A stretch of 64,000 bases of DNA from Globodera rostochiensis (Eukaryota > Nematoda > Chromadorea > Rhabditida > Heteroderidae), in the NCBI GenBank assembly GCA_018350325.1, contig JAEVLN010000031.1:293472-357471 (forward strand). The letters are read 5' to 3'. Both the position numbers and the translations under genes were made by a program. The notes under the pieces were generated by a model, which ran no database searches, was not told where the DNA came from, and saw only the letters and a list, made by a program, of their open reading frames with translations. Shown piece after piece: positions 12,801 to 62,236 of the stretch; the stretch's first letter is position 1, and each line of letters opens with the position of its first letter.

Positions 12801-13833
12801 TGGCTCCCATTAAACTTGGCATTCTGGTCTCAGAAAATGCCATTGGCTCCCATTAAACTTGGCATTCTGGTCTCAGAAAATGCCATTGGCTCCCATTAAA
12901 CTTGGCATTCTGGTCTCAGAAAATGCCATTGGCTCCCATTAAACTTGGCATTCTGGTCTCAGAAAATGCCATTGGCTCCCATTAAACTTGGCATTCTGGT
13001 CTCAGAAAATGCCATTGGCTCCCATTAAACTTGGCATTCTGGTCTCAGAAAATGCCATTGGCTCCCATTAAACTTGGCATTCTGGTCTCAGAAAATGCCA
13101 TTGGCTCCCATTAAACTTGGCATTCTGGTCTCAGAAAATGCCATTGGCTCCCATTAAACTTGGCATTCTGGTCTCAGAAAATGCCATTGGCTCCCATTAA
13201 ACTTGGCATTCTGGTCTCAGAAAATGCCATTGGCTCCCATTAAACTTGGCATTCTGGTCTCAGAAAATGCCATTGGCTCCCATTAAACTTGGCATTCTGG
13301 TCTCAGAAAATGCCATTGGCTCCCATTAAACTTGGCATTCTGGTCTCAGAAAATGCCATTGGCTCCCATTAAACTTGGCATTCTGGTCTCAGAAAATGCC
13401 ATTGGCTCCCATTAAACTTGGCATTCTGGTCTCAGAAAATGCCATTGGCTCCCATTAAACTTGGCATTCTGGTCTCAGAAAATGCCATTGGCTCCCATTA
13501 AACTTGGCATTCTGGTCTCAGAAAATGCCATTGGCTCCCATTAAACTTGGCATTCTGGTCTCAGAAAATGCCATTGGCTCCCATTAAACTTGGCATTCTG
13601 GTCTCAGAAAATGCCATTGGCTCCCATTAAACTTGGCATTCTGGTCTCAGAAAATGCCATTGGCTCCCATTAAACTTGGCATTCTGGTCTCAGAAAATGC
13701 CATTGGCTCCCATTAAACTTGGCATTCTGGTCTCAGAAAATGCCATTGGCTCCCATTAAACTTGGCATTCTGGTTTCAGAAAATGCCATTGGCTCCCATT
13801 AAACTTGGCATTCTGGTTTCAGAAAATGCCATT
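9883..13833. repeat. 43-bp satellite, about 92 units
   Basis: The unit starts GGCTCCCATTAAACTTGGCA and ends AAAATGCCATT. After a first shortened unit of 38 bp, the remaining length equals exactly 91 x 43 bp, so there is no net indel. Variants are confined to the edges: GCTTTCATT and CCAATTA in early units and GGTTTCAG in the last two. Since 43 is not a multiple of three, no frame stays open. There are no unique spacers, so this is not CRISPR. Confidence 0.97.
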
Positions 13834-20050: not shown

Positions 20051-22279
20051 TCACTCTGCCTGATCGCTTTTGTGCAATTCTAGCCGAGTGATCAGAACGT
20101 GGCCAAGACTTTGCCCTTCCCGTATGGCCACCAATTTGCCTTCGCCTCCATCGGCGGCGTTTGCCTCGCTCAAATTCACAGAGCAAATGACCTCGCCCTA
20201 AAAAAACAATTTACACTAGGGTTGCGATCGGGCAAAGACAATTTCCAAGGACAGACATGTTGATTTTCAAGGGCATAAAAAGAAAAATTTGGCGAAATCC
20301 AAGGACGCTCATCTCCAAAATCAAGTTAAGGGTCAAATTTTGGGGTTTACCCGAGACCGGAACCGTATCCAGCCTTGAATTTCGTTGTTGGAAAGTTCGA
20401 CGGCACCGACATATTATTATATTTTTTCAGAAAAAATTTACACAATGCCAAAACATGAATATTTCCATTAATATTCAAAAATTTTCAACATTTTGGCTGA
20501 ATCGCTATTTTCAAGAACAATCTTAAAAATAAAGGCATTTCCAATTTTTAAAATCGATGGTCCATTTTCAAGGACTGTCCTTGCCATTCAAGAGTTTAAC
20601 GCAACCCTGATTAATACCAAAGTGATGGCTTAATCAAATCTTAAAATTAAAAAAAACGAGGCATTCGATTAATTTGGAGAGTTACCTAAGTTGTTACCAG
20701 AGAAAGGACTTGACGACTGATCGAGATTTCGATCGAGAATTCTCGAAAAAAATTAAACGATCAAGATTCGTTCGAGATCACTGAAAAATCTCGGTAAAAA
20801 TTTGTTCAATCGAGAATCGATCGAATCTCGAAAAAATCTCGAGAATCTTGATCGTCCTTTCTCTAGTTTTTACACTGCACACCTTGGCCCGTTGAAGGTG
20901 CGAAAGCATTACACAAAGAGACACTCCTTCAACGTCATCTTCGCAAAATTTTGGCTTCGACGAATCAAATTCCTAAAAAAAAGAGCAAAAATGGATATTA
21001 AATTTCTTTTTAAAAAATACAGTAATAACGAACTAAAGAAATGTTGCTATTTATTCCCCCCCCCCCTCTATTTAATTTTGCAATATTTTCTGATCAGCAA
21101 ATATCGATCAACAAATTGTTTTGTGATCGAGATCACCTCGGAGAATTTCAGAAATGCCAGATGAGACAATGCCCAGCGGGAGGGCACTTTGGCACCATCG
21201 CTGGACAATCGCTGACCCCCGCTCCTTTGGTGGCCAGTAGCAGAAGAAGCATCAGCAGTAGGTGGAGGACCGTTGTCAGCTATTTGATGGCCATCATTAT
21301 CCGCTTCATCATCACCAATTCGTCCTGATGGCATGTCGCCCACACTGCTGAACACGTACACCTGGACAGAAAGTAATGAGGATTATTTCAAAAACTTGTA
21401 ACTTCGTTTCCCCTCTGACGCCGGCCCCCCCCCCCCCCCCCGAATCTTCTCCCCCCCCCCCCCGATTCGTACGCCCACCCCCGAAACGTCCCCCCCCCCC
21501 CGAATCGTACGCCCCCCCCCGAATCGTCTCCCCCCCCCCACCCGACTTTGTTAGTGAAATGGCCACAGAAGTCGAACCAAATTGTCACTCGGAGTCCGTG
21601 TTCAGCAAAGTCAACATTGACCGGCATCGGCAGTTCTGCAACAGTTATTTTGTATACATTTTTCTATATTATTTTCCGGGAATTTTTAGCACGAATCAGA
21701 TCGGACCAACGCCAGACCAATTAAGTTTAATTGTATAAAAAAATATGGTTTTAATTTCACGTGCTATGCAAGCCGCCGATCACTTCAATGTCAGCAAATT
21801 TTGAAACGCTTTAACTTTTTCAAACTCAACCAAACAAACAAACAATAGAGCCAATCAAAAGTCTCTAATTGAGAAGAAGCATTTGAAAAATTAGTCAATG
21901 TGAAGAGCACCCAAAATCGGGGTTTTTCACTGTTTTATAAAAATAACTTTTTCAAAAATTCTCTAATTTGAATTGCTGGCACTGAAGCAATGTGTGCCGT
22001 GCCATGCATGCATCGATCTCCAATATAATACGGACTTGAGGCAAGCTCTATCGAGATTTCAATCGAGAATGCCGAAAAGATCTCGACGAGATCTTGATCG
22101 GTCCGGGCTCTAGTGCCAAGTTCACGTACCATGCATTGTCCTCCAGTGGTACGTGTGGTGGTCGTACGACGTCGTGTGTCCATCGTACACCAACGGGTCG
22201 CGCAACGAACGCGGATTGGTCAGGTTGGAGCGCAGCTCGGGAATTTGCACGTCGCAAACTTTCGGATCGCGTTCAACAT
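20051..22279 (-). CDS. MALT1: Paracaspase C-terminal exons 12-16
   Basis: Part of the gene 20051-44606. Exon 12 (residues 494-543) has Glu-Leu-Arg-Ser-Asn-Leu-Thr then Arg-Ser-Leu-Arg-Asp-Pro-Leu, matching the end of the MALT1 protease domain. Across the 12-13 junction the frame reads His-Glu-Leu-Pro, as in vertebrate MALT1. Exon 13 continues the third Ig-like region. Exon 14 (574-648) has an Asp/Gly/Ser-rich low-complexity loop before a Leu-rich helix. Exons 15 and 16 supply the last strands, and the protein ends after Ser-Asp-Gln-Ala-Glu. All five junctions keep phase. Exon 15 ends 18 bases from a MITE in intron 15. No AATAAA is obvious just past the stop. Confidence 0.82.
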
Positions 22280-25200
22280 CTATTAAAACAATTAAAAATA
22301 GTCGAGCGAGTGGAGGACTACTAAACGTTTCCCTAACCGGTTCCCACTAAAGGCCGAGTTTCGGGATCCCGGCTAAATCCCGACCCAAACCCGGGAAATT
22401 CCCCCCAAAAAATGGTCGGTCGTGATCCCGATTATAGTAGGCCGGGACCGGAACTGGTACTGAAGTCTCCAATTTTAGGACTAAATTTCCCCCTTATAAA
22501 ATCATGGTTGCCAATATTTCACACTTTTTGGTTATTTAAACTAAAAAAATTTTAGATAGGGTGCGTTGGTATTCTCGCCGCCTGACTCTCTCTTTTTAGC
22601 ACACTATTTCGTCCAAAAATAAAATGTTCAAGAAATTAAACTAAAACAATTTTTAGATGGGGTGCGTTTGTCCAAATTACTCTCGCCGCCTGAGTCTCTC
22701 TTTTTAGCCCACTATTTCTTCAAAAAAAAAAGTTCAAGAAATTAAACTAAAACAATTTTTAGATGGGGTGCGTTGGTCCAAATTACTCTCTCCGCCTGAC
22801 TCTCTCTTTTTAGCACACTATTTCTTCAAAAAATAAAATGTTCAAGAAATTAAACTAAAACAATTTTTAGATGGGGTGCGTTTGTCCAAATTACTATCGC
22901 CGCCTGACTCTCTCTTTTTAGCACACTATTTCGTCCAAAAATAAAATGTTCAAGAAATTAAACTAAAACAATTTTTAGATGGGGTGCGTTTGTCCAAATT
23001 ACTCTCGCCGCCTGAGTCTCTCTTTTTAGCACACTATTTCGTCCAAAAATAAAATGTTCAAGAAATTAAACTAAAACAATTTTTAGATGGGGTGCGTTGG
23101 TCCAAATTACTCTCGTCGCCTGACTCTCTCTTTTTAGCACACTATTTCTTCAAAAAAAAAATGTTCAAGAAATTAAACTAAAACAATTTTTAGATGGGGT
23201 GCGTTTGTCCAAATTACTCTCGCCGCCTGACTCTCTCTTTTTAGCACACTATTTCTTCAAAAAATAAAATGTTCAAGAAATTAAACTAAAACAATTTTTA
23301 GATGGGGTGCGTTTGTCCAAATTACTCTCGCCCACTGACTCTCTCTTTTTAGCACATTATTTCGTCCAAAAAAAAAATGTTCAAGAAATTAAACTAAAAC
23401 AATTTTTAGATGGGGTGCGTTGGTCCAAATTACTCTCGCCGCCTGAGTCTCTCTTTTTAGCACACTATTTCTTCAAAAAATAAAATGTTCAAAAAAGTAA
23501 CTAAAAACAATTTTTAGATGGGGTGCGTTTTGTCCAAATTACTCTCGCCGCCTGAGTCTCTCTTTTTAGCACACTATTTCGTCCAAAAATAAAATGTTCA
23601 AGAAATTAAACTAAAACAATTTTTAGATGGGGTGCGTTTGTCCAAATTACTCTCGCCGCCTGACTCTCTCTTTTTAGCACATTATTTCGTCCAAAAATAA
23701 AATGTTCAAGAAATTAAACTGAAACAATTTTAAGATGGGGTGCGTTTGTCCAAATTACTCTCGCCGCCTGAGTCTCTCTTTTTAGCCCACTATTTCTTCA
23801 AAAACGAAAATGTTCAAGAATAAACTAAAAACAATTTTTAGATGGGGTGCGTTGGTCCAAATTACTCTCGCCGCCTGAGTCTCTCTTTTTAGCCCACTAT
23901 TTCTTCAAAAAAAAAAAGTTCAAGAAATTAAACTAAAACAATTTCTAGATGGGGTGCGTTGGTCCAAATTACTCTCGCCGCCTGACTCTCTCTTTTTAGC
24001 ACATTATTTCGTCCAAAAATAAAATGTTCAAAAAAGTAACTAAAAACAATTTTTAGATGGGGTGCGTTTGTCCAAATTACTCTCGCCGCCTGAGTCTCTC
24101 TTTTTAGCACACTATTTCGTCCAAAAATAAAATGTTCAAGAAATTAAACTAAAACAATTTTTACATGGGGTGCGTTTGTCCAAATTACTCTCGCCGCCTG
24201 CTCTCTCTTTTTAGCACACTATTTCATCAAAAATAAAATGTTCAAGAAATTAAACTAAAACAATTTTTAGATGGGGTGCGTTTGTCCAAATTACTCTCGC
24301 CGCCTGACTCTCTCTTTTTAGCACATTATTTCGTCCAAAAAAAAAATGTTCAAAAAAGTAACTAACACAATTTTTACATGGGGTGCGTTTGTCCAAATTA
24401 CTCTCGCCGCCTGACTCTCTCATTTTTAGCACACTATTTCATCAAAAATAAAATGTTCAAGAAATTAAACTAACACAATTTTTAGATGGGGTGCGTTGGT
24501 CCAAATTACTCTCGCCGCCTGAGTCTCTCTTTTTAGCACACTATTTCGTCCAAAAATAAAATGTTCAAGAAATTAAACTAAAACAATTTTTAGATGGGGT
24601 GCGTTTGTCCAAATTACTCTCGCCGCCTGACTCTCTCTTTTTAGCACATTATTTCGTCCAAAAATAAAATGTTCAAGAAATTAAACTGAAACAATTTTAA
24701 GATGGGGTGCGTTTGTCCAAATTACTCTCGCCGCCTGAGTCTCTCTTTTTAGCCCACTATTTCTTCAAAAAAAGAAAATGTTCAAGAATAAACTAAAACA
24801 ATTTTTAGATGGGGTGCGTTGGTCCAAATTACTCTCTCCGCCTGACTCTCTCTTTTTAGCACACTATTTCGTCCAAAAATAAAATGTTCAAGAAATTAAA
24901 CTGAAACAATTTTAGATGGGGTGCGTTCGTCCAAATTACTATCGCCGCCTGACTCTCTCTTTTTAGCACACTATTTCTTCAAAAAAAGAAAATGTTCAAG
25001 AAATTAAACTAAAACAATTTTTAGATGGGGTGAGTTGGTCCAAATTACTCTCTCCGCCTGACTCTCTCTTTTTAGCCCACTATTTCTTCAAAAAAAGAAA
25101 ATGTTCAAGAAATTAAACTAAAACAATTTTTAGATGGGGTGCGTTGGTCCAAATTACTCTCTCCGCCTGACTCTCTCTTTTTAGCCCACTATTTCTTCAA

Positions 25201-28200
25201 AAAAAGAAAATGTTCAAGAAATTAAACTAAAACAATTTTTAGATGGGGTGCGTTTGTCCAAATTACTCTCGCCGCCTGAGTCTCTCTTTTTAGCCCACTA
25301 TTTCTTCAAAAAAAAAATTTCAAGAAATTAAACTAAAACAATTTTTAGATGGGGTGCGTTTGTCCAAATTACTCTCGCCGCCTGACTCTCTCATTTTTAG
25401 CACACTATTTCATCAAAAATAAAATGTTCAAGAAATTAAACTAACACAATTTTTAGATGGGGTGCGTTGGTCCAAATTACTCTTGCCGCCTGACTCTCTC
25501 TTTTTAGCACACTATTTCTTCAAAAAATAAAATGTTCAAAAAAGTAACTAACACAATTTTTACATGGGGTGCGTTTGTCCAAATTACTCTCGCCGCCTGA
25601 GTCTCTCTTTTTAGCCCACTATTTCTTCAAAAAAAAAGTCAAGAAATTAAACTAAAACAATTTTTAGATGGGGTGCGTTGGTCCAAATTACTCTCGCCGC
25701 CTGACTCTCTCTTTTTAGCACACTATTTCTTCAAAAAATAAAATGTTCAAAAAAGTAACTAACACAATTTTTACATGGGGTGCGTTTGTCCAAATTACTC
25801 TCGCCGCCTGACTCTCTCATTTTTAGCACACTATTTCATCAAAAATAAAATGTTCAAGAAATTAAACTAACACAATTTTTAGATGGGGTGCGTTGGTCCA
25901 AATTACTCTCGCCGCCTGACTCTCTCTTTTTAGCACACTATTTCTTCAAAAAAAGAAAATGTTCAAGAAATTAAACTAAAACAATTTTTAGATGGGGTGC
26001 GTTTGTCCAAATTACTCTCGCCGCCTGACTCTCTCATTTTTAGCACACTATTTCATCAAAAATAAAATGTTCAAGAAATTAAACTAACACAATTTTTAGA
26101 TGGGGTGCGTTGGTCCAAATTACTCTCGCCGCCTGACTCTCTCTTTTTAGCACACTATTTCTTCAAAAAAAGAAAATGTTCAAGAAATTAAACTAAAACA
26201 ATTTTTAGATGGGGTGCGTTTGTCCAAATTACTCTCGCCGCCTGACTCTCTCATTTTTAGCACACTATTTCATCAAAAATAAAATGTTCAAGAAATTAAA
26301 CTAACACAATTTTTAGATGGGGTGCGTTGGTCCAAATTACTCTCGCCGCCTGAGTCTCTCTTTTTAGCCCACTATTTCTTCAAAAACGAAAATGTTCAAG
26401 AATAAACTAAAAACAATTTTAGATGGGGTGCGTTGGTCCAAATTACTCTCGCCGCCTGAGTCTCTCTTTTTAGCCCACTATTTCTTCAAAAAAAAAAAGT
26501 TCAAGAAATTAAACTAAAACAATTTCTAGATGGGGTGCGTTGGTCCAAATTACTCTCGCCGCCTGACTCTCTCTTTTTAGCACATTATTTCGTCCAAAAA
26601 TAAAATGTTCAAAAAAGTAACTAAAAACAATTTTTAGATGGGGTGCGTTTGTCCAAATTACTCTCGCCGCCTGAGTCTCTCTTTTTAGCACACTATTTCG
26701 TCCAAAAATAAAATGTTCAAGAAATTAAACTAAAACAATTTTTACATGGGGTGCGTTTGTCCAAATTACTCTCGCCGCCTGCTCTCTCTTTTTAGCACAC
26801 TATTTTTATCAAAAATAAAATGTTCAAGAAATTAAACTAAAACAATTTTTAGATGGGGTGCGTTTGTCCAAATTACTCTCGCCGCCTGACTCTCTCTTTT
26901 TAGCACATTATTTCGTCCAAAAAAAAAATGTTCAAAAAAGTAACTAACACAATTTTTACATGGGGTGCGTTTGTCCAAATTACTCTCGCCGCCTGACTCT
27001 CTCATTTTTAGCACACTATTTCATCAAAAATAAAATGTTCAAGAAATTAAACTAAAACAATTTTTAGATGGGGTGCGTTGGTCCAAATTACTCTCTCCGC
27101 CTGACTCTCTCTTTTTAGCCCACTATTTCTTCAAAAAAAGAAAATGTTCAAGAAATTAAACTAAAACAATTTTTAGATGGGGTGCGTTTGTCCAAATTAC
27201 TCTCGCCGCCTGAGTCTCTCTTTTTAGCCCACTATTTCTTCAAAAAAAAAATTTCAAGAAATTAAACTAAAACAATTTTTAGATGGGGTGCGTTTGTCCA
27301 AATTACTCTCGCCGCCTGACTCTCTCATTTTTAGCACACTATTTCATCAAAAATAAAATGTTCAAGAAATTAAACTAACACAATTTTTAGATGGGGTGCG
27401 TTGGTCCAAATTACTCTTGCCGCCTGACTCTCTCTTTTTAGCACACTATTTCTTCAAAAAATAAAATGTTCAAAAAAGTAACTAACACAATTTTTACATG
27501 GGGTGCGTTTGTCCAAATTACTCTCGCCGCCTGAGTCTCTCTTTTTAGCCCACTATTTCTTCAAAAAAAAAGTCAAGAAATTAAACTAAAACAATTTTTA
27601 GATGGGGTGCGTTGGTCCAAATTACTCTCGCCGCCTGACTCTCTCTTTTTAGCACACTATTTCTTCAAAAAATAAAATGTTCAAAAAAGTAACTAACACA
27701 ATTTTTACATGGGGTGCGTTTGTCCAAATTACTCTCGCCGCCTGACTCTCTCTTTTTAGCACATTATTTCGTCCAAAAAAAAAATGTTCAAAAAAGTAAC
27801 TAACACAATTTTTACATGGGGTGCGTTTGTCCAAATTACTCTCGCCGCCTGCTCTCTCTTTTTAGCACACTATTTCATCAAAAATAAAATGTTCAAGAAA
27901 TTAAACTAAAACAATTTTTAGATGGGGTGCGTTTGTCCAAATTACTCTCGCCGCCTGACTCTCTCTTTTTAGCACATTATTTCGTCCAAAAAAAAAATGT
28001 TCAAAAAAGTAACTAACACAATTTTTACATGGGGTGCGTTTGTCCAAATTACTCTCGCCGCCTGACTCTCTCATTTTTAGCACACTATTTCATCAAAAAT
28101 AAAATGTTCAAGAAATTAAACTAAAACAATTTTTAGATGGGGTGCGTTGGTCCAAATTACTCTCTCCGCCTGACTCTCTCTTTTTAGCCCACTATTTCTT

Positions 28201-31200
28201 CAAAAAAAGAAAATGTTCAAGAAATTAAACTAAAACAATTTTTAGATGGGGTGCGTTTGTCCAAATTACTCTCGCCGCCTGAGTCTCTCTTTTTAGCCCA
28301 CTATTTCTTCAAAAAAAAAATTTCAAGAAATTAAACTAAAACAATTTTTAGATGGGGTGCGTTTGTCCAAATTACTCTCGCCGCCTGACTCTCTCATTTT
28401 TAGCACACTATTTCATCAAAAATAAAATGTTCAAGAAATTAAACTAACACAATTTTTAGATGGGGTGCGTTGGTCCAAATTACTCTTGCCGCCTGACTCT
28501 CTCTTTTTAGCACACTATTTCTTCAAAAAATAAAATGTTCAAAAAAGTAACTAACACAATTTTTACATGGGGTGCGTTTGTCCAAATTACTCTCGCCGCC
28601 TGAGTCTCTCTTTTTAGCCCACTATTTCTTCAAAAAAAAAGTCAAGAAATTAAACTAAAACAATTTTTAGATGGGGTGCGTTGGTCCAAATTACTCTCGC
28701 CGCCTGACTCTCTCTTTTTAGCACACTATTTCTTCAAAAAATAAAATGTTCAAAAAAGTAACTAACACAATTTTTACATGGGGTGCGTTTGTCCAAATTA
28801 CTCTCGCCGCCTGACTCTCTCATTTTTAGCACACTATTTCATCAAAAATAAAATGTTCAAGAAATTAAACTAACACAATTTTTAGATGGGGTGCGTTGGT
28901 CCAAATTACTCTCGCCGCCTGACTCTCTCTTTTTAGCACACTATTTCTTCAAAAAAAGAAAATGTTCAAGAAATTAAACTAAAACAATTTTTAGATGGGG
29001 TGCGTTTGTCCAAATTACTCTCGCCGCCTGACTCTCTCATTTTTAGCACACTATTTCATCAAAAATAAAATGTTCAAGAAATTAAACTAACACAATTTTT
29101 AGATGGGGTGCGTTGGTCCAAATTACTCTCGCCGCCTGAGTCTCTCTTTTTAGCCCACTATTTCTTCAAAAACGAAAATGTTCAAGAATAAACTAAAAAC
29201 AATTTTTAGATGGGGTGCGTTGGTCCAAATTACTCTCGCCGCCTGAGTCTCTCTTTTTAGCCCACTATTTCTTCAAAAAAAAAAAGTTCAAGAAATTAAA
29301 CTAAAACAATTTCTAGATGGGGTGCGTTGGTCCAAATTACTCTCGCCGCCTGACTCTCTCTTTTTAGCACATTATTTCGTCCAAAAATAAAATGTTCAAA
29401 AAAGTAACTAAAAACAATTTTTAGATGGGGTGCGTTTGTCCAAATTACTCTCGCCGCCTGAGTCTCTCTTTTAGCACACTATTTCGTCCAAAAATAAAAT
29501 GTTCAAGAAATTAAACTAAAACAATTTTTACATGGGGTGCGTTTGTCCAAATTACTCTCGCCGCCTGCTCTCTCTTTTTAGCACACTATTTCATCAAAAA
29601 TAAAATGTTCAAGAAATTAAACTAACACAATTTTTAGATGGGGTGCGTTTGTCCAAATTACTCTCGCCGCCTGACTCTCTCTTTTTAGCACACTATTTCT
29701 TCAAAAAAGAAAATGTTCAAGAAATTAAACTAAAACAATTTTTAGATGGGGTGCGTTTGTCCAAATTACTCTCGCCGCCTGACTCTCTCATTTTAGCACA
29801 CTATTTCATCAAAAATAAAATGTTCAAGAAATTAAACTAACACAATTTTTAGATGGGGTGCGTTGGTCCAAATTACTCTCGCCGCCTGAGTCTCTCTTTT
29901 TAGCACCACTATTTCTTCAAAAACTAAAATGTTCAAGAAAGTAACTAAACACAATTTTAGATGGGGTGCGTTTGTCCAAATTACTCTCGCCGCCTGAGTC
30001 TCTCTTTTTAGCCCACTATTTCTTCAAAAAAAAAAGTTCAAGAAATTAAACTAAAACAATTTTAGATGGGGTGCGTTGGTCCAAATTACTCTCGCCGCCT
30101 GACTCTCTCTTTTTAGCACACTATTTCTTCAAAAATAAAATGTTCAAAAAGTAACTAAAACAATTTTTAGATGGGGTGCGTTTGTCCAAATTACTCTCGC
30201 CGCCTGACTCTCTCTTTTTAGCACACTATTTCGTCCAAAAATAAAATGTTCAAGAAATTAAACTAAAACAATTTTTACATGGGGTGCGTTTGTCCAAATT
30301 ACTCTCGCCGCCTGCTCTCTCTTTTTAGCACACTATTTCATCAAAAATAAAATGTTCAAGAAATTAAACTAAAACAATTTTTAGATGGGGTGCGTTTGTC
30401 CAAATTACTCTCGCCGCCTGACTCTCTCTTTTTAGCACATTATTTCGTCCAAAAAAAAAAATGTTCAAGAAATTAAACTAAAACAATTTTTAGATGGGGT
30501 GCGTTTGTCCAAATTACTCTCGCCGCCTGACTCTCTCATTTTTAGCACACTATTTCATCAAAAATAAAATGTTCAAGAAATTAAACTAACACAATTTTTA
30601 GATGGGGTGCGTTGGTCCAAATTACTCTCGCCGCCTGACTCTCTCTTTTTAGCACACTATTTCTTCAAAAAATAAAATGTTCAAAAAAGTAACTAACACA
30701 ATTTTAAGATGGGGTGCGTTTGTCCAAATTACTCTCGCCGCCTGAGTCTCTCTTTTTAGCCCACTATTTCTTCAAAAAAAGAAAATGTTCAAGAATAAAC
30801 TAAAACAATTTTTAGATGGGGTGCGTTGGTCCAAATTACTCTCGTCGCCTGAGTCTCTCTTTTAGCACACTATTTCTTCAAAAAAATGTTCAAGAAATTA
30901 AACTAAAACAATTTTTAGATGGGGTGCGTTTGTCCAAATTACTCTCGCCGCCTGAGTCTCTCTTTTTAGCCCACTATTTCTTCAAAAAAAAAAAGTTCAA
31001 GAAATTAAACTAAAACAATTTTTAGATGGGGTGCGTTTGTCCAAATTACTCTCGCCGCCTGACTCTCTCATTTTTAGCACACTATTTCATCAAAAATAAA
31101 ATGTTCAAGAAATTAAACTAAAACAATTTTTAGATGGGGTGCGTTTGTCCAAATTACTCTCGCCGCCTGACTCTCTCTTTTTAGCACATTATTTCGTCCA

Positions 31201-34200
31201 AAAAAAAAATGTTCAAAAAAGTAACTAACACAATTTTTACATGGGGTGCGTTTGTCCAAATTACTCTCGCCGCCTGACTCTCTCATTTTTAGCACACTAT
31301 TTCATCAAAAATAAAATGTTCAAGAAATTAAACTAACACAATTTTTAGATGGGGTGCGTTGGTCCAAATTACTCTCGCCGCCTGACTCTCTCTTTTTAGC
31401 ACACTATTTCTTCAAAAAAAGAAAATGTTCAAGAAATTAAACTAAAACAATTTTTAGATGGGGTGCGTTTGTCCAAATTACTCTCGCCGCCTGACTCTCT
31501 CATTTTTAGCACACTATTTCATCAAAAATAAAATGTTCAAGAAATTAAACTAACACAATTTTAGATGGGGTGCGTTGGTCCAAATTAATCTCGCCGCCTG
31601 AGTCTCTCTTTTTAGCCCACTATTTCTTCAAAAACGAAAATGTTCAAGAATAAACTAAAAACAATTTTTAGATGGGGTGCGTTGGTCCAAATTACTCTCG
31701 CCGCCTGACTCTCTCTTTTTAGCACACTATTTTCATCAAAAATAAAATGTTCAAGAAATTAAACTAAAACAATTTTTAGATGGGGTGCGTTTGTCCAAAT
31801 TACTCTCGCCGCCTGACTCTCTCTTTTTAGCACATTATTTCGTCCAAAAAAAAATGTTCAAAAAAGTAACTAACACAATTTTTACATGGGGTGCGTTTGT
31901 CCAAATTACTCTCGCCGCCTGACTCTCTCATTTTTAGCACACTATTTCATCAAAAATAAAATGTTCAAGAAATTAAACTAACACAATTTTTAGATGGGGT
32001 GCGTTGGTCCAAATTACTCTCGCCGCCTGACTCTCTCTTTTTAGCACACTATTTCTTCAAAAAAAGAAAATGTTCAAGAAATTAAACTAAAACAATTTTT
32101 AGATGGGGTGCGTTTGTCCAAATTACTCTCGCCGCCTGACTCTCTCATTTTTAGCACACTATTTCATCAAAAATAAAATGTTCAAGAAATTAAACTAACA
32201 CAATTTTTAGATGGGGTGCGTTGGTCCAAATTAATCTCGCCGCCTGAGTCTCTCTTTTTAGCCCACTATTTCTTCAAAAACGAAAATGTTCAAGAATAAA
32301 CTAAAAACAATTTTTAGATGGGGTGCGTTGGTCCAAATTACTCTCGCCGCCTGAGTCTCTCTTTTTAGCCCACTATTTCTTCAAAAAAAAAAGTTCAAGA
32401 AATTAAACTAAAACAATTTCTAGATGGGGTGCGTTGGTCCAAATTACTCTCGCCGCCTGACTCTCTCTTTTTAGCACATTATTTCGTCCAAAAATAAAAT
32501 GTTCAAAAAAGTAACTAAAAACAATTTTTAGATGGGGTGCGTTTGTCCAAATTACTCTCGCCGCCTGAGTCTCTCTTTTTAGCACACTATTTCGTCCAAA
32601 AATAAAATGTTCAAGAAATTAAACTAAAACAATTTTTACATGGGGTGCGTTTGTCCAAATTACTCTCGCCGCCTGCTCTCTCTTTTTAGCACACTATTTC
32701 ATCAAAAATAAAATGTTCAAGAAATTAAACTAAAACAATTTTTAGATGGGGTGCGTTTGTCCAAATTACTCTCGCCGCCTGACTCTCTCTTTTTAGCACA
32801 TTATTTCGTCCAAAAAAAAAATGTTCAAGAAATTAAACTAAAACAATTTTTAGATGGGGTGCGTTTGTCCAAATTACTCTCGCCGCCTGACTCTCTCATT
32901 TTTAGCACACTATTTCATCAAAAATAAAATGTTCAAGAAATTAAACTAACACAATTTTTAGATGGGGTGCGTTGGTCCAAATTACTCTCGCCGCCTGACT
33001 CTCTCTTTTTAGCACACTATTTCTTCAAAAAATAAAATGTTCAAAAAAGTAACTAACACAATTTTAAGATGGGGTGCGTTTGTCCAAATTACTCTCGCCG
33101 CCTGAGTCTCTCTTTTTAGCCCACTATTTCTTCAAAAAAAGAAAATGTTCAAGAATAAACTAAAACAATTTTTAGATGGGGTGCGTTGGTCCAAATTACT
33201 CTCGTCGCCTGAGTCTCTCTTTTTAGCACACTATTTCTTCAAAAAAATGTTCAAGAAATTAAACTAAAACAATTTTTAGATGGGGTGCGTTTGTCCAAAT
33301 TACTCTCGCCGCCTGAGTCTCTCTTTTTAGCCCACTATTTCTTCAAAAAAAAAAAGTTCAAGAAATTAAACTAAAACAATTTTTAGATGGGGTGCGTTTG
33401 TCCAAATTACTCTCGCCGCCTGACTCTCTCATTTTTAGCACACTATTTCATCAAAAATAAAATGTTCAAGAAATTAAACTAAAACAATTTTTAGATGGGG
33501 TGCGTTTGTCCAAATTACTCTCGCCGCCTGACTCTCTCTTTTTAGCACATTATTTCGTCCAAAAAAAAAATGTTCAAAAAAGTAACTAACACAATTTTTA
33601 CATGGGGTGCGTTTGTCCAAATTACTCTCGCCGCCTGACTCTCTCATTTTTAGCACACTATTTCATCAAAAATAAAATGTTCAAGAAATTAAACTAACAC
33701 AATTTTTAGATGGGGTGCGTTGGTCCAAATTACTCTCGCCGCCTGACTCTCTCTTTTTAGCACACTATTTCTTCAAAAAAAGAAAATGTTCAAGAAATTA
33801 AACTAAAACAATTTTTAGATGGGGTGCGTTTGTCCAAATTACTCTCGCCGCCTGACTCTCTCATTTTTAGCACACTATTTCATCAAAAATAAAATGTTCA
33901 AGAAATTAAACTAACACAATTTTTAGATGGGGTGCGTTGGTCCAAATTAATCTCGCCGCCTGAGTCTCTCTTTTTAGCCCACTATTTCTTCAAAAACGAA
34001 AATGTTCAAGAATAAACTAAAAACAATTTTTAGATGGGGTGCGTTGGTCCAAATTACTCTCGCCGCCTGAGTCTCTCTTTTTAGCCCACTATTTCTTCAA
34101 AAAAAAAAAGTTCAAGAAATTAAACTAAAACAATTTCTAGATGGGGTGCGTTGGTCCAAATTACTCTCGCCGCCTGACTCTCTCTTTTTAGCACATTATT

Positions 34201-37200
34201 TCGTCCAAAAATAAAATGTTCAAAAAAGTAACTAAAAACAATTTTTAGATGGGGTGCGTTTGTCCAAATTACTCTCGCCGCCTGAGTCTCTCTTTTTAGC
34301 ACACTATTTCGTCCAAAAATAAAATGTTCAAGAAATTAAACTAAAACAATTTTTACATGGGGTGCGTTTGTCCAAATTACTCTCGCCGCCTGCTCTCTCT
34401 TTTTAGCACACTATTTCATCAAAAATAAAATGTTCAAGAAATTAAACTAAAACAATTTTTAGATGGGGTGCGTTTGTCCAAATTACTCTCGCCGCCTGAC
34501 TCTCTCTTTTTAGCACATTATTTCGTCCAAAAAAAAAATGTTCAAGAAATTAAACTAAAACAATTTTTAGATGGGGTGCGTTTGTCCAAATTACTCTCGC
34601 CGCCTGACTCTCTCATTTTTAGCACACTATTTCATCAAAAATAAAATGTTCAAGAAATTAAACTAACACAATTTTTAGATGGGGTGCGTTGGTCCAAATT
34701 ACTCTCGCCGCCTGACTCTCTCTTTTTAGCACACTATTTCTTCAAAAAATAAAATGTTCAAAAAAGTAACTAACACAATTTTAAGATGGGGTGCGTTTGT
34801 CCAAATTACTCTCGCCGCCTGAGTCTCTCTTTTTAGCCCACTATTTCTTCAAAAAAAGAAAATGTTCAAGAATAAACTAAAACAATTTTTAGATGGGGTG
34901 CGTTGGTCCAAATTACTCTCGTCGCCTGAGTCTCTCTTTTTAGCACACTATTTCTTCAAAAAAATGTTCAAGAAATTAAACTAAAACAATTTTTAGATGG
35001 GGTGCGTTTGTCCAAATTACTCTCGCCGCCTGAGTCTCTCTTTTTAGCCCACTATTTCTTCAAAAAAAAAAGTTCAAGAAATTAAACTAAAACAATTTTT
35101 AGATGGGGTGCGTTTGTCCAAATTACTCTCGCCGCCTGACTCTCTCATTTTTAGCACACTATTTCATCAAAAATAAAATGTTCAAGAAATTAAACTAACA
35201 CAATTTTTAGATGGGGTGCGTTGGTCCAAATTACTCTCGCCGCCTGACTCTCTCTTTTAGCACACTATTTCTTCAAAAAATAAAATGTTCAAAAAAGTAA
35301 CTAACACAATTTTTACATGGGGTGCGTTTGTCCAAATTACTCTCGCCGCCTGAGTCTCTCTTTTTAGCCCACTATTTCTTCAAAAAAAAAGTCAAGAAAT
35401 TAAATTAAAACAATTTTTAGATGGGGTGCGTTGGTCCAAATTACTCTCGCCGCCTGACTCTCTCTTTTTAGCACACTATTTCTTCAAAAAATAAAATGTT
35501 CAAAAAAGTAACTAACACAATTTTTACATGGGGTGCGTTTGTCCAAATTACTCTCGCCGCCTGAGTCTCTCTTTTTAGCCCACTATTTCTTCAAAAAAAA
35601 AGTCAAGAAATTAAATTAAAACAATTTTTAGATGGGGTGCGTTGGTCCAAATTACTCTCGCCGCCTGACTCTCTCTTTTTAGCACACTATTTCTTCAAAA
35701 AATAAAATGTTCAAAAAAGTAACTAAAACAATTTTTAGATGGGGTGCGTTTGTCCAAATTACTCTCGCCGCCTGACTCTCTCATTTTTAGCACACTATTT
35801 CATCAAAAATAAAATGTTCAAGAAATTAAACTAACACAATTTTTAGATGGGGTGCGTTGGTCCAAATTACTCTCGCCGCCTGACTCTCTCTTTTTAGCAC
35901 ACTATTTCTTCAAAAAAGAAAATGTTCAAGAAATTAAACTAAAACAATTTTTAGATGGGGTGCGTTGGTCCAAATTACTCTCGCCGCCTGACTCTCTCTT
36001 TTTAGCACACTATTTCTTCAAAAAATAAAATGTTCAAGAAATTAAACTAACACAATTTTTACATGGGGTGCGTTTGTCCAAATTACTCTCGCCGCCTGAG
36101 TCTCTCTTTTTAGCCCACTATTTCTTCAAAAAAAAAGTCAAGAAATTAAACTAAAACAATTTTTAGATGGGGTGCGTTGGTCCAAATTACTCTCGCTGCC
36201 TGACTCTCTCTTTTTAGCAAACTATTTCATCCAAAAATAAAATGTTAAGAAATATGGAAAAAAGCCCGCCCGGAAAAGCCCTGCCGGCCCCAACCCGATT
36301 ATCCGAACCCGAGTGTTTAACTTTCTTCAATGTGGTTTCCGGCTTAAAATTTTCGCGGATTCAGACCCAAGAAATCCCGACTCAAGCCCGATCGATCCCG
36401 TCCCCAAAATTTAGTCGTCCCGCGAGATCCCGACGGAAGCCCAATCCCGTCCCGGTCTTTAGCTTACACAACAACCACCGCATTCATTGTCTCTTTGTTT
36501 GTCACCCGTTTTGCCCACCTCTGAACACTTTGTTGAGCATGTCCAACAGAGCAATTGGCTGATGAATTCGCCGTTTCAAATACTTCATGAACACGCCGTT
36601 CTGCTCGCCCTTCACTTCGTACGCTCCGACACCGCCGCTGGTCGCATAGCCTAAAAAATTGTTGTTGAACTTCAAAAAAAAACAAAAAAAATCACTTTTT
36701 TTAAATTTTGACTTTGGTGTCGAATTTAACTTACCCTTGGGGGGGAGGTCCTTTTTTAAATTTGAGAATAAGAGAGAGTGTAGTTTTTCTTAAAACCCTC
36801 AAAATAGGTACAACATTGGGGGTGTATAAATATAAATCTATAAAAATAGTTATTTTTAACAAAAAAAAAATGTATTTTTTTAGAGGTGCATTTTTCAATC
36901 GATTCGGTTTTATCGGTGAAAAATGTTTGTGGTAGCATAAAAAAAGCTTTAAATGCGTGAATTTTCAGAGTTAGTGGTAGGGTTAAACCCCGAACCCCGA
37001 GTCCCAAAATGGGATCATCCCCGACTCCTGCTTTCTTTAGGTTCGGGGACCGGAGGTGAACGAACACCCCTAAAGATCGGACTATTTAAAATTATATATA
37101 CCTATGTATTTATGCTTGCCCATAGAAAACATTGTTGAAATTTTTATTTTCAGCCCCGACCCCGACAATTGGGTCGTCCCCGACCCCCGTCATGACCAAC

Positions 37201-40200
37201 CTCGGCTTCCCTGACTTTCCGGCCCCCGAGGGGTCGGGGCTCAACCCTAATTAGTGGGGGATGAAAGCGTAAATTTTTTTTATAGTTTAAGCTGCCCACC
37301 CACCATAAACGGTGCTGCGGTTTATGCGCACGTCGCCCTGTCGAAATGTTTGTGCATAAGCGGTGAATGCGTCCAAATTGGAGGGCAAAAATTTTCGGCA
37401 AATGTCCAACAAAATCAAATTGAGCGCCGCAGGCTGAACGTCCCGGAATTGGTCCATAACCTACAAGTGTAGGAACAATTTTGTCAACAATATTTTTTGT
37501 TGTTTTAATCTTGCTTTTTTGGACTGGGAGTTTCATCTATCAAAAGCTAGTAGCAGAACGTTCCGACAATTACGGAGTCATTCCCCGAACCCCCGACATT
37601 TTCGCCCTCGACAACTTGTTCAACCCCGAGAAACCAGAACTTTTCAACCCCGAGAAACCCCGACTTTTCAACTCCGAGAAACCCCGATTTTTCAACTCCG
37701 AGAAACCCCGACTTTTCAACCCCGAAAAAAACACCCGACTTTTCAACCCCGAAAAAAACCACGATTTTTCAACCCCGAAAAAAACCCCGACTTTTCAACC
37801 CCGAGAAACCCCGACTTTTCAACCACCCGTCCCCGACTTTTCCGCCCGAACGTCGTCGGGGTGCCAATCCTAATTAAATGATTGAGGGTTTGAGGAGGTG
37901 GGATAGGGCTTTGATTTCATTCATTTATTAACGGTTTGGTTATCAGCGAACCGCTTAATATAGATACGTAAACACTCTTTTAATCCCACATGGGGAATTA
38001 TTTTTCAACCTACTCATAGGGTGGGGGATTAATAGAGTGTTTTAGGTAATTTGTTTGCTTTTTTGTTCACCAACCCAATCCATGCTTAAACAGTGCTCCG
38101 GCCCATAATCATGGCCGGGTGCTCCGATTGGCAGCAAATAGCATTGGCCATGTGCCTCGAAGCCATGGCCAACGAAATAAAACACAGCTTGAAAGGGAGG
38201 GGGGGAAATCAGATTTAGAAGATTAATTTACCCTAAACGTGATAATAAATAAAATATATTTCTCAAAGTTTAAAATAAATTTTTGTACCATAAACACCTT
38301 CGCCCAAAAGTTTGCGGTACTCGCGAATTAAAGCGCGCATTTCAATCAAATTCAGGTCACCAAGTGTAACAGTTTTGAAGCTGAGCTGCTGAAGAGCTTC
38401 AGCCTATAAGAATAATGATTTTTGGAAGAGTTTCTAAAACTAAAAACAACGATTTTTGTTTTAGTCGAATAGCGCCCAAAAATTTCTGATAAATAAGTAC
38501 AGCTACGCGCCCTGGCTTAACTTTATTTGTATACGGCGGATCCTTCTTAAATTTTCACCATCGCTTGAGAAAAAAATAAAGAATCGTTTTTCGGTGTCAT
38601 GGCACAAGAACGCGGTCCAGGATTTTTGAAAAAATAATTTTCCAAACATTTTCAAACTTCAAACCAATTTTTTCAAAAATCTCCAAACTCTTTCAGCAAA
38701 TATCGAAACAATTTCTCTGTATTATGTATTGTCTCTAACTATAGGCATGCCCACCATTTGGCATAGGTGAGTCCCCCCCCCCCCGTTTTTTTTTGTCCTG
38801 GAAATTTTTGGTCCCGAGTTTTTCGAAAAGTCCGGCTCCCGTCGGTCGTACTACCCAAATTTAAACGTCAATTCAAAAACATATAATATGTTACGTACGC
38901 ACCAACGTTTCGGCATCGCAGTGAGGCGTTATCAAATTGCTCATGTTGGGCGCGTACGTGCGATTGGACACAATAAGTGCCAGCTTGTCCGCCGCCACCA
39001 GTGCCTCCGTTTGAGTGGCTGCAAGCGGTTAATCACTGGTCAGATTTATACAAAACAAAAAATGTTTTTTGTTTCACAATACACCTCAAAATGTGATTTG
39101 ATCAAGCATTCGATATCTGATGTCTGCGAGGGAGGGCAAATCGAACTTTTCTGTGAAATTTTTTTTTTGTTTTTTTTTAGAAAATCACAGAATTTGACCA
39201 AAAAAGTTGCGCCAGAAATTGTTAATGCCTTTTCGTCTTTCGCTTTTTCAAATCATAACAAATGGAGCCAACAAAATGTAACCGCAAAAATTTTTTTTGA
39301 AAATTTTAAGAAAATACAATAAATTAGCCAAAAAAACACCCAATTTTTCCTTCTCTTTACACTAAAGCCACCCTCCCCCCCCCCAGCAGAGTTAGCACGT
39401 CTGAAATTTTGTGTAAAATTTGATGAAACCCGTAGACTGAACAAGATGTCGAGTTTAGCGACCCCTCCCCCCCCCCCCCCCTCTCGTTCTGGCTTTCCCC
39501 CCTTTTTTCCTCATCCCAGTTCCCCATCACTTTTTCTAGGATCGGAACACTCTGTCTAATGTATCACAATTCCCAATAAGGCAGTTGGCAACCACCCCCC
39601 CCCCCCCGATCGGCACTGATCCGTGCCCTCGGGCGCACATTCCATTTTCCTCGTCCGACACATATTCACACTTTCCAATCGGGGTTTCATCGAATTATCC
39701 ACCACATTTTTCCCCAACATTATTCGAGAATAAAGAAAGTGAAGTGACAAGGTATTTGCTTGACCCATTCCGATTCGGTCTGAACTCCCAGACGGACCCG
39801 AATCTCGACAAACAAATTGAAACTGTCCGGTATTGTTGACCCATTCCGATTTGGTCTGAACTCCCAGACGGACCCGAATCTCGACAAACAAATTGAAACT
39901 GTCCGGTATTGTTAACCCATTCCGATTCGGTCTGAACTCCCAGACGGACCCGAATCTCGACAAACAAATTGAAACTGTCCGGTATTGTTGACCCATTCCG
40001 ATTTGGTCTGAACTCCCAGACGGACCCGAATCTCGACAAACAAATTGAAACTGTCCGGTATTGTTGACCCATTCCGATTTGGTCTGAACTCCCAGACGGA
40101 CCCGAATCTCGACAAACAAATTGAAACTGTCCGGTATTGTTGACCCATTCCGATTTGGTCTGAACTCCCAGACGGACCCGAATCTCGACAAACAAATTGA

Positions 40201-43200
40201 AACTGTCCGGTATTGTTGACCCATTCCGATTTGGTCTGAACTCCCAGACGGACCCGAATCTCGACAAACAAATTGAAACTGTCCGGTATTGTTAACCCAT
40301 TCCGATTTGGTCTGAACTCCCAGACGGACCCGAATCTCGACAAACAAATTGAAACTGTCCGGTATTGTTGACCCATTCCGATTTGGTCTGAACTCCCAGA
40401 CGGACCCGAATCTCGACAAACAAATTGAAACTGTCCGGTATTGTTGACCCATTCCGATTTGGTCTGAACTCCCAGACGGACCCGAATCTCGACAAACAAA
40501 TTGAAACTGTCCGGTATTGTTAACCCATTCCGATTTGGTCTGAACTCCCAGACGGACCCGAATCTCGACAAACAAATTGAAACTGTCCGGTATTGTTAAC
40601 CCATTCCGATTTGGTCTGAACTCCCAGACGGACCCGAATCTCGACAAACAAATTGAAACTGTCCGGTATTGTTAACCCATTCCGATTTGGTCTGAACTCC
40701 CAGACGGACCCGAATCTCGACAAACAAATTGAAACTGTCCGGTATTGTTAACCCATTCCGATTTGGTCTGAACTCCCAGACGGACCCGAATCTCGACAAA
40801 CAAATTGAAACTGTCCGGTATTGTTGACCCATTCCGATTTGGTCTGAACTCCCAGACGGACCCGAATCTCGACAAACAAATTGAAACTGTCCGGTATTGT
40901 TGACCCATTCCGATTTGGTCTGAACTCCCAGACGGACCCGAATCTCGACAAACAAATTGAAACTGTCCGGTATTGTTGACCCATTCCGATTTGGTCTGAA
41001 CTCCCAGACGGACCCGAATCTCGACAAACAAATTGAAACTGTCCGGTATTGTTAACCCATTCCGATTTGGTCTGAACTCCCAGACGGACCCGAATCTCGA
41101 CAAACAAATTGAAACTGTCCGGTATTGTTAACCCATTCCGATTTGGTCTGAACTCCCAGACGGACCCGAATCTCGACAAACAAATTGAAACTGTCCAATC
41201 ACTCACTCACTCATTGCCTCATCGTCGTCGTCGTCGTTTGCGCGCCGATTTTGTGCTGGCGCTTCTACGTCAATTTGTGCCACGGCCGCCGTCGCCGTTT
41301 TTTTGGGCGCTAACATTAGCCGACAAAAGCCCTCCATTTCGTTCTTATTGCAATGCGCACAATCTCAAAAATAGTGGAATTGAAAAATAGGTAATGGCAC
41401 TAATTGTTTCAAAAAAAAATTACCGTTTAATTTTAAAATTATGAATAGCCCTGCCTGGTCTCGGGTAGAAAACAATGCCAAAATTTGATCCATAAAGATT
41501 GATGCTCATATCCGTTATCCGTCCGTATCCGTGACCTTCCAAAATCCCATATCCGGATATTCGCGGATATACAGCGGATATATCCGGATACGTGGGTTTT
41601 CATATCCGTCACCCGTCCGTATCCGTGACGATCCAAAAACCATATCCGTTATCCGCCCGTATCCGGATATATCCGCGGATATCCGCATATCCGGATATCC
41701 ATGCCCACGCCTGCACACACACATAAAAAGCAAATGTTGCAAATTAAATGCAAAAAAAACAAAAAAAAAAAAATCGCAAAATACAACGCCCTAAAAAGCA
41801 AATTTTTCCCCCAACTGCCCCATCCCCCAACAAATTTTTCTGTGACTAATAGGAGGTCCTCCCCTGTGGTTTTGCAAAATATTGACGTGCTTCAAAGCCC
41901 GTTTAAACGCAAAAAACCAAAAAGATTAAAAATGAAATTTTTAAATATGCAATTTGGGCGGGCCACCCACCCATTTTCATTCGGTGCTTCTTACGTTTGT
42001 TTGGTCCGTCCGGCACAAATTGTTGCAAATCGATCACTTCCGAGATCAATTCGGAACAAAACGTTTTGCCCGGTGCCCGATAGAAGTCCGACCATTCATG
42101 TCCGTCCTCCACAACATTCCAAACTCGGCACCGGAACACGTTGCGGGCAGTGCATTGGCACCTTTTGACACGAAAAGAACGCGAATTGAATTTCGACAAT
42201 TTTAATTGGAAAAATGTGAAAAACAAAAAAAAAAATATTCTGGGAATTGTTTCAAATTTGGGGGTTCGGGCCTCGAAATCAGTCAAAATTGAAGTCATAT
42301 TCAGAGATTCTATGACTCTGAAAGCTCTTAGAAAAATACAATTTTTGGTGATAAAAATTTTTTGTTGTTGCCTCCTCATAACCAAAAAGTACCGCCAAGG
42401 TTCTACCTGATCAGGGCTTGATTGGGCCAAATTTAATCAAAGTTTGGTTGGATAATTACGGCAAAAAAAAACGAAAACAGATCATCGTGAACAGTAGGGT
42501 CCTGATTTAACAATTTAAGCCAAAAACATCTTAAAATCCTCAAATTTTTGTTTTTTATTGCATTTTATTAGGATTTTAGCGTGCCCTAATGATCAAATTT
42601 CAAAGAATGGCCTTTTCACAAATTGTTTGAACCCAAATTCGAGCATACATTAAAAAGATTTGTGCCGCTCTCAAAGAACACATTTTACAACAAAAAATGC
42701 AAATTTTTGCCCCTCCCGAACCCACCAATATTTACTAATTACTATAATTAGGAGTGCCAAAATGCCCAAATGGCACCACCACCTGATTATAGTCAACGAC
42801 GACTGATTCGCACCGTCCATTGGCCTGTCCTGCTCCAACCACTGGTAGCGCGGGGTGGGAAAAGCGCTGGCCTTACACTGCAACCGAAGCCGACCGCCGG
42901 CGGACGCGTCGCTGCCGCCGCCGTCGTCGTCAATGCGGCTGATCAGCACCTGTTCGGCACGTGCCCAAATCACCGAACCTGGCAAAATGGGATGATACTA
43001 CGTTTCGCCAACTTTACATTTTGCCAACCCATCAAAAATGATGTTACGTTTTGATTTAAGTTTTTTGCTGGGTTGGCAAATGTAACATTTTTGCCTGGGT
43101 TGGCAAAATGTAACACTGGCAAAACGTTGGGACAAGGGCTGGGCAAAATTTCGGATTAGTTTCGGATTTTTGGGGTTCGGATTTCGGATTTTATTTTCCG

Positions 43201-53182: not shown

Positions 53183-54104
53183 TACCGTAAACACTCTTGT
53201 AATCCCACAAGCCGTATTATTTTTCAACCCTCTCCGAGGGGGCGGGATTATTAGAGGGGGTGGGATTATTAGAGGGGGCGGGATTATTAGAGGGGGCGGG
53301 ATTATTAGAGGAGGCGGGATTATTAGAGGGGCGGGATTATTAGAGGGGGCGGGATTATTAGAGGGGGCGGGATTATTAGAGGGGGCGGGATTATTAGAGG
53401 GGGCGGGATTATTAGAGGGGGTGGGATTATTAGAGGGGGCGGGATTATTAGAGGGGGCGGGATTATTAGAGGAGGCGGGATTATTAGAGGGACGGGATTA
53501 TTAGAGGGGGCGGGATTATTAGAGGGGGCGGGATTATTAGAGGGGCGGGATTATTAGAGGGGGCGGGATTATTAGAGAGGGCGGGATTATTTTTCAATTG
53601 TTTGGCGATATGTTCATCTATCACGAAAATTCTTCACTTTTTCCCACACAATTTCCATACTTCTTCAGCTGGCGAAAATTTTTTTTGAAAAAAACCAAAG
53701 GAGGAACCTGTTTGTTTTGCAAAATTTGTAGTTTTTGGACCGGTTTTTCTTTACAAATTCCATCTAAAAACACAAAAATTTGACCACTAAATTGATTTTA
53801 GAAAATTTTCTTCTGGAAAAATTCTTTAAGAAAAATGTAATAAAACCCAAAAATGCACTCCTAAAGATTGACTTTTTCAAAAAACGCACTCCTTAACGAT
53901 TGGCTTTTTTCGAATTAGCCCCCCTGAAAAAAATTCTGTATAGAGAGCGGGATTATTAGAGGGTGCAGGATTATTTTTCAACCCCCTCCGAGAGGGCGGG
54001 ATTATTAGAGGGTGCGGGATTATTTTTCAACCCCCTCCGAGAGGGCGGGATTATTTAGAGATGGTGGGTTATTAAAGGGGGAGGGATTACAAGTGTTTAC
54101 GGTA
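53183..54104. mobile_element. TA-flanked element with expanded internal 19-bp repeat
   Basis: TACCGTAAACACTCTTGTAA at the left and TTACAAGTGTTTACGGTA at the right. Inside, units of GGGCGGGATTATTAGAGGG are repeated about 18 times (53240-53590), then again near 53945-54090. The elements at the same place in B (58635-58737) and C (62057-62236) are short. Confidence 0.8.
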
Positions 54105-58634: not shown

Positions 58635-58737
58635 TACCGCAAACACTCTTGTAATCCCACCAGCGGCATTATTTTTCAACCCCCTCCGAGGGGGCGGGAT
58701 TATTAGAAGGGGCGGGATTATAAGAGTGTTTACGGTA
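58635..58737. mobile_element. TA-flanked MITE (GTAAACACTC family), 103 bp
   Basis: TACCGCAAACACTCTTGTAA to TTATAAGAGTGTTTACGGTA. It lies in unit B, 3' of gene B, at the place matching 53183-54104 of unit A (both followed by TTCGATGT and CTCTCCTTTGATAG). Confidence 0.85.
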
Positions 58738-61891: not shown

Positions 61892-62056
61892 TTTGTGAGA
61901 AGAGAATGAACGAAGCTGCTGAATACAAAATCCAAACATCGAAAATTACCCAAAGATAATTCGAATGTAATTGACTATGCAAGAATAAATTATGCTTTTG
62001 GAACAGATAAATATTTATTTATTAATGTGTAAAAAAGTAACAGAGTTTTACCAACA

Positions 62057-62236
62057 TACCGTAAACACTCTTGTAATCCCACCGGTGGGATTATTTTTCA
62101 ACCCCCTCCAAGGAGGCGGGATTATTAGAGGGGCGGGCTTATTAGAGGGGGCGGGATTATTAGAGGGGGCGGGATTATTAGAGGGGGCGGGATTATTTTT
62201 CAACCCCCGAGGGAGCGGGATTATTAGAGGTGGTGT
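62057..62236. mobile_element. TA-flanked element (GTAAACACTC family), right end lost
   Basis: TACCGTAAACACTCTTGTAA opens it; GGGCGGGATTATTAGAG repeats follow; the right inverted end is missing after GGATTATTAGAGGTGGTG. It lies 3' of gene C, as in units A and B. Confidence 0.75.

Follow-up and report, generated by a model that had tools for sequence, protein, structure and literature searches.

Satellite-filled introns as such are already known. In Drosophila, the Y-linked protein-coding genes kl-3 and kl-5 carry megabases of simple satellites, which make up more than 99% of the loci and have to be transcribed and removed, with dedicated RNA-binding proteins needed for expression (PMC6508621). 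In Tribolium, copies of the dispersed TCAST1 satellite family lie in introns of ordinary genes; the tabulated copies measure 0.6-2.8 monomers, and the intronic ones, of about 1-3 monomers, are associated with lowered expression after heat stress and with histone H3K9 methylation (PMC4537270). A third point of comparison is Cg_HINE, the non-autonomous Helentrons of the oyster, whose satellite-like tandem arrays are likewise dispersed (PMC7492417). Here we analyze a stretch of 64,000 nucleotides from the nematode Globodera rostochiensis (assembly GCA_018350325.1, contig JAEVLN010000031.1, positions 293,472 to 357,471; hereafter the window), in which intron 11 of a MALT1-type paracaspase gene holds 13.7 kb of a 108-bp satellite. 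This intron adds a rather extreme case to those described: its array has about 127 monomers, compared to the short copies of TCAST1, and takes up about 56% of the distance between the start and stop codons, whereas the satellite introns of kl-3 and kl-5 are far larger and yet transcribed. At 14,239 bp, intron 11 is not a megabase intron of the Drosophila Y type.

The reading that we favor, with a probability of about 0.68, is that a piece of a dispersed satellite family entered intron 11 as a passenger, grew in place by unequal exchange, and is transcribed and spliced out. Its foundation is the structure of the gene (Table 1). A spliced-alignment script had to reproduce the protein P0001 exactly, and was allowed GT or GC donors with AG acceptors in the vicinity of the approximate exons. 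It returned a single solution, in which 16 minus-strand exons lie between 44606 and 20051 and every intron is GT-AG. The window encodes P0001 (726 residues; its UniRef name gives Globodera rostochiensis) letter for letter; P0001 may itself be a computed gene model rather than RNA evidence. The remaining 14 introns measure 57-2,192 bp. The first-pass annotation had placed a 13.7-kb array in this intron, between an exon 11 and an exon 12 joined in phase within a 16-exon gene; Tandem Repeats Finder (TRF) and the exact alignment agree with it on the array, on the borders, numbering and phase of both exons and on the exon count.

The same annotation had assigned both exons to a single MALT1-type gene, and protein comparisons bear this out. 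A search with the joined translation of the candidate exons gave 85 hits, and all those with an organism name were from nematodes; the best was P0001, followed by proteins of G. pallida and Heterodera schachtii. With a 365-residue part of the protein as query, phmmer found MALT1 chains of the PDB (up to 1.1e-35, residues 7-286), and the same part has a Peptidase_C14 match (3.8e-20, 73 bits against a cut-off of 21.4, residues 11-228). In the alignment, YAGHGYE and LLDMCRK of MALT1 stand opposite FVGHGFE and LLDICRK, which contain the GHG and LLD.CRK motifs, which we take to be the catalytic His and Cys motifs of a MALT1-type paracaspase. An Ig_3 match on a 91-residue piece around exon 4 stayed under its cut-off (5.1e-6, 27.3 bits, cut-off 30); the precomputed listing for P0001 gives both Ig_3 and caspase domains. 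Intron 11 falls after residue 207 of the 365-residue part, within the Peptidase_C14 match and past both catalytic motifs. A transcript ending in the array would lose the end of the Peptidase_C14 domain and the last 233 of the 726 residues.

Three observations place the exons on either side of the array at one locus. When a 215-residue part of the protein was searched against the assembly (92.6 Mb, 80 contigs), the five matches obtained were all exons of this locus. In an alignment that took in 12 of the 85 protein hits, the residues at the exon 11-12 junction were ungapped in ten of the 11 proteins other than P0001; the nematode orthologues, including C. elegans F22D3.6 and G. pallida GPALN_010624, have matching junction residues, the H. 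schachtii protein model skipping ten residues at this point. Lastly, identity to the G. pallida protein is 0.932 before the array (486 aligned residues) and 0.909 after it (232 aligned residues), so that the part after the array is about as conserved as the part before, with no sign of decay in the distal exons. Given this similar conservation on both sides, full-length paracaspase is presumably still made, and the single genomic locus, the aligned junction and the undecayed distal exons together indicate that exons 1-11 and 12-16 are one gene.

Within intron 11, TRF reports a 108-bp monomer repeated 127.6 times over 13,681 bp, with 92% matches. The earlier estimate of about 127 monomers is confirmed, although they do not fill the intron, which has non-array sequence of 293 bp (22280-22572) at its low end and of 265 bp (36254-36518) at its high end. 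At this length chance is no issue, and the array qualifies as satellite DNA: it is long and head-to-tail, has a monomer of about 100 bp or more, and is related to arrays at other places in the genome. When the array was divided at a conserved 13-mer (127 anchors), it gave 126 full monomers with 58 distinct sequences, a mean pairwise identity of 0.92 and a spacing of 106-109 bp in 115 of 126. Exact repeats of 150 bp or longer form 156 pairs within the array; the longest measures 1,039 bp, its copies being spaced by 3,003 bp, and others include 972 bp at 1,717 bp and 945 bp at 1,069 bp. These exact multi-monomer duplications are the mark of repeated exchange of multi-monomer blocks, and recurrent unequal exchange, or a similar kind of duplication, would have multiplied the monomers in place until they numbered about 127. 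A regular higher-order repeat was rejected: despite a further TRF row with a 215-bp unit, the identity between monomers is almost flat with lag (0.914-0.933 at lags 1-59), leaving no strong regular order, only irregular multi-monomer duplications.

Related arrays were found on 13 other contigs (numbered here with a C). A 1-kb piece of the array gave at least 106 matches of 78-92% identity on nine other contigs (C7, C8, C16, C18, C19, C23, C27, C49 and C53), in a search that scored the best 20 of 475 candidates, among which the window's own array was absent, making this an incomplete census. Further tandem monomers lie on C14, C56, C12 and C3, and a single piece on C29. Among ten arrays taken for comparison there are nine different consensus sequences, which are 85-100% alike; one C53 array and the C16 array have the same consensus. 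A 27-mer typical of the array occurs, with up to two mismatches, at 172 places genome-wide (144 forward, 28 reverse); most of those among the matches listed are in this array, on C25. The monomer subfamily of intron 11 thus appears to be largely private. Its nearest relatives are the monomers of a composite repeat on C14, with a mean identity of 0.934 to the array consensus (n = 25), compared to 0.892 or less for 11 other groups, in a comparison that omits the arrays of C49, C8 (1.42 Mb) and C23 (5.08 and 5.46 Mb). In titles and abstract openings of the papers searched on Globodera satellite DNA, tandem repeats and intron length, we found no description of the 108-bp satellite; the excerpt of PMC4901422, on G. 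rostochiensis, has no word beginning with "satellite".

In the C14 composite, the repeated unit joins a block of some 435 bp to a few 108-bp monomers, and TRF gives periods of 634-962 bp for it. Pieces from opposite ends of this block flank the array in intron 11 (Table 1). On the left, the stretch running from the flank into the first monomers matches the C14 composite at 87.2% over 203 columns (blastn). Since block ends border the array on both sides and the C14 monomers are the nearest, the piece received by intron 11 would most likely have come from a C14-type composite, a block with a few monomers, and it is most simply read as a block end, monomers and another block end. Just outside the left flank piece, 22431-22509 is a piece of another dispersed repeat, with a single match of 93-94% on each of C23, C6 and C67 and a single match of 91% on each of C56, C11 and C6.

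A carrier element was considered and rejected. The two flanks (queries 22280-22600 and 36230-36518, 40 candidates scored each) match their own genome over their full length only at this locus and elsewhere in pieces only, and a complete element with ends did not emerge from the search. Neither flank contains an internal repeat of at least 14 bp, and no terminal repeat was recognised at the flanks of the array. The comparison with Cg_HINE leads to a similar picture. The paracaspase array has a short flank block in common with C14 and C56, but the ends of this block are matched by none of the array loci of C7, C53, C18, C16, C19 and C27, which are without a shared flank; conserved flanking modules at most copies, as in Helentron-type (HINE) elements, were not found, and no element ends were recognised. 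The 14 array edges inspected show unrelated sequence, two of the 14 being the borders of an insertion in a C18 array.

Could the array be real, with its length or internal order an artefact of assembly, the true array being shorter, longer or polymorphic? Exact duplications of up to 1 kb are of the kind that assemblers misplace, and published long reads of two G. rostochiensis lines average 5,641 and 7,469 bp, less than the length of the array (PMC8359618, which gives 92 Mb in 173 scaffolds for a published line). We consider this quite unlikely: both flanks match over their full length only here, the 58 distinct monomers give an assembler many anchors, and the subfamily is unlike the other arrays sampled, which makes a join of two foreign arrays unlikely. 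With full-length flank matches only at this locus and a largely private subfamily, a false join is unlikely, the exact copy number being uncertain.

Other features were seen near members of the satellite family. Three places, two on C23 (and one on C8; L047, L048 and L049), have segments that are about 95-98% identical over about 7-10 kb. The segments contain a portion of the composite block together with monomer pieces in direct orientation and a single inverted monomer, and two of them also have a 2.1-kb array in common, which suggests large recent duplications or a large mobile element. A C18 array is seemingly interrupted by about 24.6 kb (about 664.2-688.8 kb; right end of L025, left end of L026), and the ends of the interruption are inverted copies, 82% identical over 334 columns; this resembles a large inverted-repeat element inserted in the satellite. 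On C16, C19, C23 and C8, members of a multi-copy gene family are located no more than a few kb from 108-bp arrays or from segments with monomers. By tblastn it was found in ten of the 41 sequences searched (the window and L011-L050), none of them the window (Table 1). These members are partly non-independent, L034/L036 and L047-L049 being copies of one duplicated segment, and the three that were tested had no Pfam match. On C12, near a short run of 108-bp monomers, an integrase-like open reading frame (ORF) and another long ORF (L053:3405-4043 and L053:4252-5055) point to a possible large mobile element; the integrase-like ORF, tested on the L040 piece, matched rve at 0.009, below its cut-off.

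With exons 1-16 in one gene, transcription must cross the array to reach exons 12-16, as the first-pass annotation had argued and as the gene structure supports. The transcribed strand of the gene is the strand with AACGCACCCCATC. On this sense strand the array contains neither AATAAA nor ATTAAA (means of 20 shuffles, 12.6 and 14.7), and on the antisense strand 80 and 92 of them, respectively (172 together). Because the transcribed strand is without a canonical polyadenylation (poly(A)) signal, the array in its native orientation should not end the transcript; RNA polymerase would read through it, and the 14.2-kb intron would be spliced out to give the normal 726-residue protein. Splice sites were scored with rough matrices of general splice-site preferences, and the remaining introns of the gene, 8,136 bp in all, served for comparison. 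None of the 731 sense GT sites of the array reaches the score of the exon-11 donor, which is one of the stronger donors of the gene, compared to 28 of 609 on the antisense strand and 17 sites in the other introns; acceptor-like sites on the antisense strand number 236. To judge from these counts, the orientation of the array is harmless for poly(A) signals and mixed for splice sites.

Several points weigh against the reading of a passenger that is transcribed and removed. Transcription and splicing across the array are inferred from sequence, and the route of entry is unproven: no target-site duplication was found, the longest direct match between the outer sides of the two flank pieces being 5 bp, as chance would give (412 of 500 random pairs were at least as long). 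The weak poly(A) variant AAGAAA occurs 64 times on the sense strand of the array. The same strand is free of AATAAA and ATTAAA in the arrays of C7, C53, C16 and C27, with one of each on C19, and the orientation of the array in the gene may be luck, with a chance of one half. As for donors, the best sense GT in the array (5.4) outscores nine of the 15 real donors of the gene, and 146 sense GT sites have a score of at least 4.6. If GC is treated as GT and given no penalty, the exon-11 score is also attained by 119 of the 506 sense GC sites; the share of GC-AG introns in G. rostochiensis is 3.46% (PMC4901422). Sense acceptor-like sites at or above the exon-12 acceptor score number 85 (6.2 per kb), compared to 46 (5.7 per kb) in the other introns.

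These observations modify two ideas that the motif counts had raised. A purging of poly(A) signals specific to this locus was rejected, as the same strand is free or nearly so in arrays of five other contigs (C7, C53, C16, C27 and C19); the C18 arrays have 2, 24 and 14 poly(A) hexamers on the strand equivalent to sense. The signal-free strand thus seems to be largely a property of the satellite family and not of the paracaspase locus. The idea that the sense strand has no usable donors was weakened, given the best GT and the frequent GC sites when unpenalised. The monomers might act as decoy splice sites (acceptor-like TTTTAG, donor-like GTAATT or GC), tuning the amount of full-length paracaspase through poison exons or stepwise splicing. 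The 85 acceptor-like sites, the 124 copies of GTAATT on the transcribed strand and the GT and GC sites above speak for such an effect. The absence of any GT equal to the exon-11 donor among 731, and an acceptor density about that of the gene's other introns, speak against it, and we consider it very unlikely.

The passenger reading further proposes that the array has little effect on the gene. A strong effect is argued against by distal exons that are intact and conserved, by a sense strand free of canonical poly(A) signals and by the lack of RNA structure in the monomer dimer that was folded, whose sense RNA folds no better than shuffles (z 0.64). No Rfam family and no tRNA was found. For the silencing, repeat RNA and altered splicing that the first-pass annotation had raised, the sequence analysis gave no support. 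The alternative is that the array acts on its gene, lowering or conditioning paracaspase expression through satellite chromatin or as a source of small RNA, in the manner of TCAST1 in Tribolium after heat stress. There is precedent for this (PMC4537270), with tabulated intronic copies of 0.9-2.8 monomers as opposed to about 127 here, and small RNA might also come in trans from related arrays on other contigs. With an intact coding sequence, conserved 3′ exons and no unusual structure in the dimer RNA, we think a regulatory array unlikely.

A bolder proposal, which we regard as improbable, starts from the strand asymmetry: the 108-bp family may settle and expand in genes of this nematode only in the orientation that gives RNA free of poly(A) signals, making it a strand-asymmetric, transcription-transparent satellite. 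If so, the paracaspase intron would be its clearest case, and arrays of opposite orientation would have been purged from introns since they would end transcripts. Scans of the flanks of other arrays for coding segments revealed no second intronic array, so the proposal rests on one case; for the neighbour gene of the C19 array, the upstream exon was not found in 5 kb on its far side, about half of which is array.

Table 1. Positions of the paracaspase gene, its intronic repeats, the pieces flanking the satellite, and members of the multi-copy gene family (window coordinates unless an L number is given).
Feature	Position	Strand	Basis or detail
Paracaspase (MALT1-type) gene, start to stop codon, 16 exons, 726 residues	20051..44606	-	exact translation
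Exon 11, 132 bp	36519..36650	-	donor GAG/gtgggcaa
Exon 12, 150 bp	22130..22279	-	acceptor gttttaatag/ATG
Intron 11, 14,239 bp, GT-AG	22280..36518	-	spliced alignment to P0001
108-bp satellite array, about 127 monomers	22573..36253	GATGGGGTGCGTT read on +, antisense to gene	TRF, monomer analysis, strand motif counts
Left flank piece, common to the block adjoining monomers in C14 composites	22508..22572	+	blastn
Right flank piece, 57 bp	36313..36369	+	94.7% to opposite end of same composite block (C14, C56)
Dispersed-repeat piece just outside left flank piece	22431..22509	+	
Tandem array 76 bp x 19, intron 6, starting 14 bp after exon 6	39751..41196		TRF
Tandem array 24 bp x 8.5, intron 9	37614..37824		TRF
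Tandem array 19 bp x 5.6, intron 13	21430..21539		TRF
Two-copy repeat, intron 3	43062-43115		TRF
Multi-copy family members (1)	L027:694-1340, L029:1900-2630, L031:2810-3529, L033:3757-4472, L034:3775-4575		
Multi-copy family members (2)	L035:3824-4569, L036:3746-4546, L047:8908-9651, L048:9050-9793, L049:9136-9879		

Tandem repeats are not confined to intron 11. TRF rows occur in five of the 15 introns of the gene, one of them with two copies only, and the same satellite is found on many contigs; the rarity implied by the first-pass annotation was therefore too strong. Elsewhere in the window, a large uniform array of a 43-bp unit (91.5 copies, 99%) occupies 9898-13833, and arrays of an 18-bp unit related to GAGGGGGCGGGATTATTA lie at 53236-53591, 53942-54060, 62111-62197 and 58691-58725 (TRF). 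The minus-strand ORFs at 57787-58404 and 61573-61974 have the stretch AIIAVTVPRERSPSVPL in common and represent a repeated family; the one such ORF that was tested had no Pfam hit. By the main TRF rows, tandem arrays cover about 20 of the 64 kb of the window. For two G. rostochiensis lines the published repeat content is 2.6% and 1.6% (PMC8359618), and a coverage of this order suggests that these figures miss much tandem DNA.

What sets intron 11 apart is its length within its gene and the fact that the surrounding gene is intact. Here, in a compact genome, a protease gene that is conserved and single-copy has a span from start to stop codon that is more than half satellite, with intact exons on either side. 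It provides a natural test of whether a long intronic satellite silences, slows or leaves alone the gene in which it lies, and of whether genes tolerate a satellite according to its lack of poly(A) signals on one strand.

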